Assembly: GCA_902557655.1 (NCBI GenBank)
Contig: CACEAZ010000005.1
Span: 17,859 to 81,858, forward strand
DNA from: an uncultured Bacteroidota bacterium
GTDB lineage: Bacteria; Bacteroidota; Bacteroidia; Flavobacteriales; Flavobacteriaceae
DNA: 64,000 nucleotides
Direction: 5' to 3'
Shown: positions 31 to 3,354 of the stretch, in pieces
Layout of the letters: every line of letters begins with the position of its first letter
Numbering within the stretch: the first letter of the stretch is position 1
Program-made: the position numbers and the translations under genes
The notes under the pieces: model-generated
Database searches by the model: none
The model's input: the letters and a program-made list of their open reading frames with translations, nothing else
Told to the model about the DNA's origin: nothing

Positions 31-1563
31 ATGAATATTGAAAACTCACTAAAAAAATTAGGCTTATCCAGCCACAATATTGGAACTTCAACAGGCAGTA
101 ATTATTTCAGCAACGGAGATTCAATTAGTAGCTACTCGCCAGTAGATGGAAAAGAAATTGGAACGGTTTCAACAACAACACATGAAGACTATAATAAGGT
201 TGTAGAAAGCGCCCAATCTGCTTTTAAGTATTGGAGAACTATTCCTGCTCCACAAAGAGGTGAAATTGTAAGACAATTTGGAAATAAGCTTAGAGAATTA
301 AAAGATCCACTTGGAGTTTTAGTTTCCTATGAAATGGGTAAAAGCTTTCAAGAAGGATTAGGTGAGGTTCAAGAAATGATTGATATATGTGATTTTGCTG
401 TTGGTCTTTCTAGACAATTACATGGATTAACCATGCATAGTGAAAGACCTGGCCATAGAATGTATGAGCAATATCATCCACTAGGGATTGTTGGTATCAT
501 TTCAGCATTTAATTTCCCTGTAGCTGTATGGTCTTGGAATACGGCACTTGCTTGGATATGTGGTGATGTATGTGTTTGGAAGCCCAGTGAAAAAACACCA
601 CTTTGCTCAGTTGCATGTCAAAAGATTATTGCAGATATATTAAAAGAAAATAATTTACCTGAAGGAATTTCATGTTTAATAAATGGTGATTATAAAGTTG
701 GAGAATACATGACCAAGGACAAAAGAATCCCACTTATTTCTGCAACTGGTTCAACGAGAATGGGTAAAATTGTTGCAAGTGAAGTAGGCGCTAGATTAGG
801 AAAATCATTATTAGAGCTTGGAGGAAACAATGCGATTATTGTCACACCGGACGCAGATGTTAAGATGACAGTGATGGGTGCAGTTTTTGGTGCGGTTGGT
901 ACTGCAGGTCAAAGATGCACCTCAACAAGAAGATTAATTATACATGAAGATATTTACAATGAAGTGCGTGATGCGGTTGTAAATGCATACAAACAAATTA
1001 AAATTGGAAATCCACTTGATCAATCAAATCATGTGGGACCTGTAATCGACAAATTAGCTGTTGATATGTATTCCAAGGCTTTGGATAAGGTAGTTGAGGA
1101 AGGTGGAAATATCATTGTTGAAGGTGGTGTTTTAGAAGGTGAAGGATATGAAAGTGGCTGTTATGTGAAACCTGCTATTGCTGAGGCAAAACCAGATTTT
1201 CACATTGTTCAAGAAGAAACTTTTGCACCAATTTTATACTTACTTAAGTATTCTGGACCGGTAACCAATGCAATTGAAATTCAAAATAATGTTACACAAG
1301 GATTGTCTTCAGCAATTATGACAAACAACCTTAAGGAAGCTGAGAAATTTCTTTCAGCTGCTGGTTCAGATTGTGGAATAGCTAATGTAAATATTGGTAC
1401 TTCAGGCGCTGAAATCGGCGGTGCATTTGGTGGTGAAAAAGATACTGGTGGTGGTAGAGAATCAGGTTCAGATGCTTGGAAAATCTACATGCGAAGACAA
1501 ACAAATACAATCAATTATACAGACGATCTTCCTCTAGCTCAGGGAATTAAATTTGATCTTTAA
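31..1563 (+). CDS. aldehyde dehydrogenase, ALDH7 / aminoadipate-semialdehyde dehydrogenase-like
   Basis: 510 aa ORF; ALDH motifs LLELGGNNAIIV and GTAGQRCTSTRR; C-terminal GAFGGEKDTGGGRESGSDAWKIYMRR typical of the ALDH7 family. Confidence 0.93.
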   Translation: MNIENSLKKLGLSSHNIGTSTGSNYFSNGDSISSYSPVDGKEIGTVSTTTHEDYNKVVESAQSAFKYWRTIPAPQRGEIVRQFGNKLRELKDPLGVLVSYEMGKSFQEGLGEVQEMIDICDFAVGLSRQLHGLTMHSERPGHRMYEQYHPLGIVGIISAFNFPVAVWSWNTALAWICGDVCVWKPSEKTPLCSVACQKIIADILKENNLPEGISCLINGDYKVGEYMTKDKRIPLISATGSTRMGKIVASEVGARLGKSLLELGGNNAIIVTPDADVKMTVMGAVFGAVGTAGQRCTSTRRLIIHEDIYNEVRDAVVNAYKQIKIGNPLDQSNHVGPVIDKLAVDMYSKALDKVVEEGGNIIVEGGVLEGEGYESGCYVKPAIAEAKPDFHIVQEETFAPILYLLKYSGPVTNAIEIQNNVTQGLSSAIMTNNLKEAEKFLSAAGSDCGIANVNIGTSGAEIGGAFGGEKDTGGGRESGSDAWKIYMRRQTNTINYTDDLPLAQGIKFDL

Positions 1564-1778
1564 TCGCTAGGAAGTTTAAACAAATCTTCCACTTTACAAC
1601 CAAGTGTTTTAGCAATCTTTAATGCCAATACAGTTGATGGAACATAAATGCCATTTTCAATCGCATTTATGCTTTTCCTTGAGACATTCGCACTCTCTGA
1701 AAGATCTTGCTGAGTTAACCCCGCAGATTTTCGAATTTCTTGAAGATTATTTAAAAGATTTTTGTGATTTCTACCCAA
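1560..1778 (-). CDS. short XRE-family HTH transcriptional regulator
   Basis: 72 aa; LNNLQEIRKSAGLTQQDLSESANVSRKSINAIENGIYVPSTVLALKIAKTLGCKVEDLFKL is a classic HTH_3 domain. Confidence 0.93.
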   Translation of the reverse strand: MGRNHKNLLNNLQEIRKSAGLTQQDLSESANVSRKSINAIENGIYVPSTVLALKIAKTLGCKVEDLFKLPSD

Positions 1779-1780
1779 AA

Positions 1781-2170
1781 CTATTTCTTTTCAAATTCAT
1801 CAACGGCATTAGTTAGTTCTTCACTAGTGTTTGGATAAAGGTATCCTGCAATCAAAGTTCCTACACCTATTGCTCCTACCAAAGCTCCAACACCTTTTAA
1901 TATACTTCCAAGTGCTATATAACCTAAGAAATAGAGACCAACACCAACAAATATTGTTATAACTCCATTTCTGCGATAATCTATTGGCTCATCTTTCCTT
2001 TCATCAACAATATGCAAAAGCTCCTCTAATTTATCTGGATCATCTATGTGTTTAGCAATCTCTAGGACAGTTTGTCTCTTATGTTTTGCGTCATGATATA
2101 GCCAAAGAAATACAGCTATTGGGACAATTATCCCTGTTAGTATTCCTAATATTGGTATTATATTTTCCAT
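1781..2170 (-). CDS. DUF6249-like small membrane protein
   Basis: N-terminal TM, charged middle segment, two C-terminal TMs ending IAGYLYPNTSEELTNAVDEFEKK; paralog of the adjacent ORF. Confidence 0.75.
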   Translation of the reverse strand: MENIIPILGILTGIIVPIAVFLWLYHDAKHKRQTVLEIAKHIDDPDKLEELLHIVDERKDEPIDYRRNGVITIFVGVGLYFLGYIALGSILKGVGALVGAIGVGTLIAGYLYPNTSEELTNAVDEFEKK

Positions 2171-2179
2171 AATTAAAAT

Positions 2180-2653
2180 TTATTTTTTTTCGTAGCTTTC
2201 AACTGTGTCGGTTATTTCATCAGGTTGATTTGGATATACATACCCTGCAATCATTTGGCCAAAACCTATAAACATTACGAGTAATCCAACTCCAAATAAT
2301 ACATCTAGACTAAGACCATATTCACCCAAAGCGGCAAGACCGATACCTGTGAAAAGGGTAACTAAGCCAGTTCTTCTCAAATCTTTATTCGATTTTTGAC
2401 TCTCTTTAAAAGACTTTAAAAGATCTTTTATTTCATCAGGATCTTTTACATTTTTAGAAATTTCGATTAAAGCATCGTATTTGTATTTCTTTTGTTTTGA
2501 TTCATAAACGAAAACAATTAAAACGATAAATACAGGTAAAAGTATTCCTATAATAGGAATTAATAGTGCCATTTCCCCCACATCAAATAGGTCAATCTGA
2601 AGAGGCGATATTGAATTCATAAATTCTAAGGCTTGATATTGAATAGTAAACAT
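2180..2653 (-). CDS. DUF6249-like small membrane protein (paralog)
   Basis: Same architecture and C-terminus (IAGYVYPNQPDEITDTVESYEKK) as 1781..2170; 9-bp gap to next gene. Confidence 0.75.
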   Translation of the reverse strand: MFTIQYQALEFMNSISPLQIDLFDVGEMALLIPIIGILLPVFIVLIVFVYESKQKKYKYDALIEISKNVKDPDEIKDLLKSFKESQKSNKDLRRTGLVTLFTGIGLAALGEYGLSLDVLFGVGLLVMFIGFGQMIAGYVYPNQPDEITDTVESYEKK

Positions 2654-2663
2654 AATATTGTAA

Positions 2664-2729
2664 TTTTTTTTTAATGTAACGCAAACGTAACATTTTAATT
2701 TATGTTACGCAAAGGTTACATTAAAAAAA
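2664..2729 (-). promoter_or_regulatory. dyad-symmetric operator overlapping a Bacteroidota-type promoter of the DUF6249/XRE operon
   Basis: + strand aatgtaac-gcaaa-cgtaacat-tttaattt-atgttacg-caaag-gttacatt, flanked by T9 and A7; on the minus strand CTTTG-N20-TACGTTTG matches TTG/TAnnTTTG. Confidence 0.7.
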
Positions 2730-2733
2730 TTTG

Positions 2734-3354
2734 TTAAATTTTTTCTTTCATTAATTTATAGTAATCTGAAATGGATTTTTTTTCCTTATTTGGATAACTT
2801 GTCTGATTATAATTAACTTTGTAACCAACAGCTAAGTCAATAGCATTCATTACTAAGTCTGTTTCAAATGTTTCTTCTCGACTTTTTACTAGTTTCATAA
2901 AACCTCCATAGTTTAGAGACTGTTTAAGTTTTTTTGTAACAATAGATTTTGTTTTTTTATCATATTTTGACTTCCTAGTTTTATCTTTCATTTTAAAGCA
3001 AATCCTATCATTAAAATCAATAAAAAGGATAAAATTTGAACAAATTATTCTATCGTATTTATCTTTCTTGTGTGCTGTAACATGAGCCATATGTTTAATT
3101 TCACTCCAAGTTTTGGTTTTTTTATATATAGGTAAGAAAAAAAATGTTTTTGAAATGCCTCTTCCGTCCGCGGTATATTTTTTTAGACCTAATATTAAGC
3201 AGATTATTGATATCACAATAAATACATTTATATCGTAATCAAACCTTTCAAAAAAATTATATTTTTCACTTACTCCCATATAATATAACCCAGAAAAAAC
3301 CAGGAAAACAATTAATTCAATAGGCTCGTATAATTTTATATTTCTTTCTAACAT
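2734..3354 (-). CDS. hypothetical protein with two predicted N-terminal TM helices
   Basis: 206 aa ORF abutting the SDR stop codon; hydrophobic segments at about residues 10-28 and 42-58. Confidence 0.65.
   Translation of the reverse strand: MLERNIKLYEPIELIVFLVFSGLYYMGVSEKYNFFERFDYDINVFIVISIICLILGLKKYTADGRGISKTFFFLPIYKKTKTWSEIKHMAHVTAHKKDKYDRIICSNFILFIDFNDRICFKMKDKTRKSKYDKKTKSIVTKKLKQSLNYGGFMKLVKSREETFETDLVMNAIDLAVGYKVNYNQTSYPNKEKKSISDYYKLMKEKI

Follow-up and report, generated by a model that had tools for sequence, protein, structure and literature searches.

In Enterococcus faecalis, the CylR1/CylR2 system consists of a small XRE-type regulator, CylR2 (66 aa), and a small membrane protein encoded with it. 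CylR2 sits on a promoter, and induction requires CylR1, which has three predicted transmembrane helices; the path of the signal has yet to be understood (PMC3709268). The C-proteins, represented by C.Csp231I and its relatives, are small XRE-fold dimers that use two separated operators with a long spacer at their own promoter (PMC4321490). In the LytTR systems HdrRM and BrsRM, a DNA-binding regulator is encoded in one operon with an inhibiting membrane protein, and repeats are found at the operon's own promoter (PMC6193735).

The window analysed here, the whole stretch of 64,000 nucleotides from an uncultured Flavobacteriaceae bacterium, carried an operon of three genes on the minus strand. These encoded a DUF6249 membrane protein of 157 aa (paralogue A, 2180..2653), a second DUF6249 membrane protein of 129 aa (paralogue B, 1781..2170), and an XRE/HTH_3 regulator of 72 aa with a TTG start and the helix VSRKSINAIENG (1560..1778). 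As in CylR1/CylR2, a small XRE was encoded with a small membrane protein; unlike that system, the regulator operon would be controlled at its own promoter, the operator was a promoter-embedded pair, the membrane partner was DUF6249, and no toxin operon adjoined. The C-proteins shared the XRE fold and the two separated operators at the own promoter (binding being predicted here), whereas they belong to restriction-modification systems and lack a membrane partner; next to the window operon, restriction genes were not seen. The LytTR systems shared the operon of regulator and membrane protein and the repeats at its own promoter, but their regulator has a LytTR domain rather than XRE, their repeats are direct and lie upstream of the -35 element, and their feedback is positive.

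Pfam analysis assigned the 157-aa and 129-aa proteins to PF19762 with E=1.6e-14 and E=7.2e-11, respectively (54.1 and 42.4 bits against a gathering cut-off of 33), and the 72-aa protein to HTH_3 with E=1.7e-15 (57.2 bits against a cut-off of 23). The preliminary description had given each DUF6249 protein three transmembrane segments; this was left unconfirmed, the AlphaFold model of the 129-aa protein being helical and of low confidence (mean pLDDT 56.9). The XRE model was helical and fairly confident (mean pLDDT 83), and its nearest folds were CylR2-like. The nearest PDB entry by sequence was CylR2, and the nearest by fold were DR_2454 and CylR2, with the C-proteins next; CylR2 (2xiu) was matched with E=2.8e-14 by profile and E=3.6e-05 by fold. 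The regulator was thus CylR2-like, as in the CylR1/CylR2 system, and by analogy the module may work like that system in outline; it was not filed as a member, the comparison covering the XRE side.

In the window operon, the XRE start codon lay two bases past the DUF6249 stop, and in homologues the distance was 2-3 nt (10 nt in L021). This short gap suggests translational coupling of the two genes. The start codon was TTG in 15 of 18 loci, ATG in two and GTG in one. Both DUF6249 types shared one operon here (1781-2653), while relatives had one gene; the two-paralogue operon was peculiar to this genome among those examined.

Re-reading of the sequence gave the same dyad, at the same coordinates, as the preliminary description. 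Its two 28-nt arms, at 2666-2693 and 2702-2729, were 82% complementary with 8 nt between them; GTAAC cores lay at 2676/2687 in the first arm and, inverted, at 2704/2715 in the second. The expected count of two exact TGTWACN6GTWACA sites 20-31 bp apart was 2e-8 per window and 5e-7 per genome under a Markov-1 model of the window. Chance cannot plausibly account for the dyad, which is genuine. Only two exact single TGTWACN6GTWACA sites were present in the 1.39-Mb genome, both in the dyad. A regulon elsewhere was not apparent in the genome scan, which found no further exact site and one-mismatch sites that were mostly intragenic (the assembly was 81.7% complete and the scan not exhaustive).

The dyad had been read as four half-sites with 11-bp spacing. 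That count and that spacing hold, although an arm is more fittingly taken as a single dimer operator. Because GTWAC nearly equals its own reverse complement, each arm forms an 18-bp near-palindrome, and the dyad is better read as two such putative operators (TGTWAC-N6-GTWACA, 2675-2692 and 2703-2720) than as four same-sense half-sites. The homologues favoured this: their inner halves kept TGWNAM, not GTAAC, and the 18-locus consensus of both operators reduced to TGWNAM in the inner half when taken outside-in.

On the minus strand, operator O1 (TGTAACCTTTGCGTAACA, 2703..2720) was centred on the -33 element, with the consensus TGTAAC-STTTRC-KTNWCA in 18 loci, and operator O2 (TGTTACGTTTGCGTTACA, 2675..2692) was centred on the -7 element, with the consensus TGWTAM-GTTTGC-GTTACA in the same number. 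The -33 TTTG element (2710..2713, minus strand) lay in the spacer of O1, 20 nt upstream of the -7 box TACGTTTG in the spacer of O2 (2682..2689, minus strand), so that N20 separated the two. The -33 element was TTTG in 15 of the 18 loci and TTTA in 3. The -7 box followed the TAnnTTTG consensus, which occupies positions -12 to -5 (PMC9723704); this placed the predicted transcription start at an A at 2677 (minus strand), with a 24-nt leader. Comparative evidence supported the earlier proposal of a double operator that encloses the promoter elements. The core (TTTG, TA) owes part of its conservation to promoter constraint. Measured start to start, the operators were 28 bp apart in 12 loci; in the six remaining loci the spacing was 26-31 bp, and this range speaks against dimers held in a fixed contact on the same face.

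An inverted repeat of this kind could instead act as an RNA or DNA hairpin, as the terminator of the upstream 206-aa gene, an attenuator or a cruciform, and folding of the window did predict a strong RNA hairpin (-25 kcal/mol, z -5.95). This explanation is very improbable. On either strand a T-run preceded the dyad and an A-run followed it, the opposite of an intrinsic terminator, and the predicted start at 2677 would leave most of the hairpin untranscribed from the own promoter. In homologues, pairing of the inner arms was broken at single pairs in up to 5 of 12, pairs with double changes were not above shuffles (281 of 500 as high; 92.3 vs 89.8% of cells paired), and the dyad was kept while the upstream genes differed. 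As an intrinsic terminator the site was rejected, since an A-run rather than a U-run followed the hairpin on both strands.

The 206-aa protein (2734-3354, minus strand) matched nothing in Pfam, PADLOC or PHROG at the thresholds used. L013 had a similar gene in the same place; it was absent in L014-L016, where the SDR gene adjoined the operon.

Homologues were collected from family genomes, genome contigs and order genomes. Conservation of the site upstream of homologous operons was the check that the preliminary description had set for itself, and it was run: every one of the 18 intact DUF6249-XRE operons examined had a conserved pair of dyads across its own promoter. The outer TGTAAC was invariant, and the outer GTTACA was altered in one locus only. 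In L008, the pair preceded an added 76-aa gene at the front of the operon, which indicates that the pair follows the promoter and not DUF6249. The neighbouring genes differed between genomes while the dyad persisted.

Of the 151 family genomes, the paired-site pattern matched 8, and these were precisely the ones with an intact operon; the pattern was built from these family loci, and the family scan shows absence elsewhere more than presence. Genomes of the family sample with an intact operon were 1.3-2.0 Mb in size, and the named relatives were single-cell or metagenome assemblies. A second genome of the same genus in this sample (86% complete) gave no match. Among 298 order genomes the pattern matched three, the same three that had an XRE more than 80% identical together with DUF6249; one of them, G353, had not been used in building the pattern. 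The reversed-pattern control gave 0 matches in the order genomes. Two decayed operons were without the paired site. In L011 (G124), a deletion had collapsed the operon, so that the N-terminus of DUF6249 ran straight into the C-terminus of XRE (...DDPAKLEDLFKLP), and one operator was gone; in L054 (G422), an XRE remnant without an intact reading frame remained at 1501-1635, and the paired pattern was absent from G422.

The sequence itself shows the site, how well it is conserved, how strictly it goes with this XRE and that related XRE operons have a matching architecture; from this we infer that XRE would bind the operators, with repression rather than activation as the outcome. We thus propose, with a probability of roughly 0.8, that the 72-aa XRE is CylR2-like and, as a dimer, represses its own operon through both operators. 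One XRE dimer would sit at the 18-bp O1, on the -33 box, and a second at O2, on the -7 box; the two would jointly block RNA polymerase and hold the membrane proteins and the repressor at a low level. The membrane partner may in turn feed back on XRE, by sequestration or by release on a membrane signal; such feedback, modelled on what has been proposed for CylR1/CylR2, is put forward tentatively.

XRE might alternatively activate its own promoter by DNA bending or polymerase recruitment, as C-proteins or LytTR systems do. Some C-proteins, with two operators at their own promoter, are activators (PMC4321490), and LytTR regulatory systems autoactivate (PMC6193735). Both operators here, however, lay on the -33 and -7 boxes, while the LytTR repeats lie upstream of the promoter, and activation is considered unlikely.

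XRE antitoxins autoregulate through paired operators, and the module might by the same token be a toxin-antitoxin or defence module, with XRE as the antitoxin and the membrane protein as the toxin. The XRE also matched HTH models of toxin-antitoxin and defence systems, below the cut-offs where these were given. Against this, neither DUF6249 protein had a match in PADLOC or PHROG that would point to a known effector or toxin partner, and no defence neighbours were seen, which makes such a module quite unlikely. Viral carriage was also considered; pattern candidates were present among viral contigs, and none was confirmed by tblastn. The suggestion of a role in envelope stress or defence was accordingly left unsupported, given the lack of DUF6249 matches, the neighbours that differed between genomes and the unconfirmed viral contigs.

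The next XRE relatives (about 45-58% identical) were mostly encoded directly behind a small membrane protein that Pfam does not relate to DUF6249. Most of them carried tandem 18-bp dyads, usually TGTAAA-N6-TTTACA at 21 bp. Each locus was scored for two TGTAANNNNNNNNTTACA sites spaced 21 bp apart, with 100 shuffles for comparison. In the discovery set, 21 of 24 loci scored at least 16/20, with 0 of 100 shuffles as good; L065 scored 15/20 with one shuffle as good, the pair scores of L066 and L079 were not significant against shuffles, and the pair in L068 scored slightly higher at 27 bp. In the later-fetched set, 7 of 16 loci scored at least 16/20 with no shuffle as good (L084, L085, L090, L091, L095, L096, and L098), L089 had one clear site, L083 and L097 were SRK types with other sites, and no convincing pair was found in L086, L092, L093, and L094. 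In L087 and L088 the XRE gene came first and had TGTCAA-N6-TTGACA dyads upstream, at a distance of 28 bp from each other; membrane-like genes followed in L087. The same arrangement, with related predicted sites, recurs across Bacteroidota.

The XRE recognition helix was invariant within the clade, and across clades the SRK helix paired with TGTAAC-type sites and the SRQ helix with TGTAAA-type sites. Among 31 SRQ loci, 17 had a half-site merged with a possible -7 box (TACATTTG). SRK relatives in another order had TGTAACCTTTGGGTATCA sites (L109-L111), TGAAACC-type sites (L112 and L113), and TGATACCTTAAGGTATCA sites (L097), and TGYAAC-like sites with inner TTCTCA/TGAGTA-like halves were present in L083, L100, L101, and L114, less cleanly in the last two. 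A scan blind to base 6 of the half-site assigned A to 32 of the 34 SRQ loci that it scored and C to 18 of the 20 SRK loci; a further 14 loci were below threshold, and the wrong pair was picked in a few known loci (L009, L110, and L111). In the XRE tree, which had few resolved branches and included the helix columns, SRQ and SRK were separated by a single change, and the independent-pairs comparison of residue and base had one pair available. The split is one evolutionary event, and the link between residue and base is therefore without independent replication; the association cannot by itself show that the residue after SR reads base 6.

The comparison nevertheless ties the predicted operator type to the XRE clade across differing membrane partners. 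Together with the pair kept in the intact operons, this lent comparative support to the earlier view of the 72-aa XRE as the likely autoregulator. It also bears on whether another regulator binds the dyad while XRE acts elsewhere. Binding of XRE to the dyad is a prediction, which leaves room for such a regulator; yet the site co-occurred with XRE and its type followed the XRE clade, and the scarcity of exact sites in the genome, with one-mismatch sites mostly intragenic, makes a global regulator unlikely. A different binding protein is therefore regarded as highly improbable.

With repression by XRE as the preferred reading, the locus offers a concrete, testable operator candidate for a family of very small XRE regulators whose partners are membrane proteins of unassigned function, and the paired-dyad signature would make such modules recognisable from sequence. 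If the membrane partner controls XRE, these would be minimal membrane-to-promoter switches without a phosphorelay. Bacteroidota could hold a widespread, undescribed class of two-gene sensors, in which a small membrane protein is combined with a CylR2-like XRE that represses its own promoter via paired 18-bp operators, and in which the residue after SR (Q/K) sets the sixth half-site base (A/C); this generalisation is speculative, and we rate it at somewhat under even odds. A search of open-access text, outside which most subscription papers lie, found no paper on DUF6249 in such a role or on such operators.

Distant DUF6249 matches in the phylum were weak and stood in ECF sigma-factor or other contexts, none of them in XRE operons. 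In the ECF sigma-factor operons of L043, L044, and L047, a DUF6249-like membrane protein adjoined a transcription regulator, as in the window; in contrast to the window, the regulator was an ECF sigma factor and the DUF6249 matches were weak and mostly partial. In L040, a DUF6249-like protein lay by an ECF sigma-factor gene as a broken fragment.
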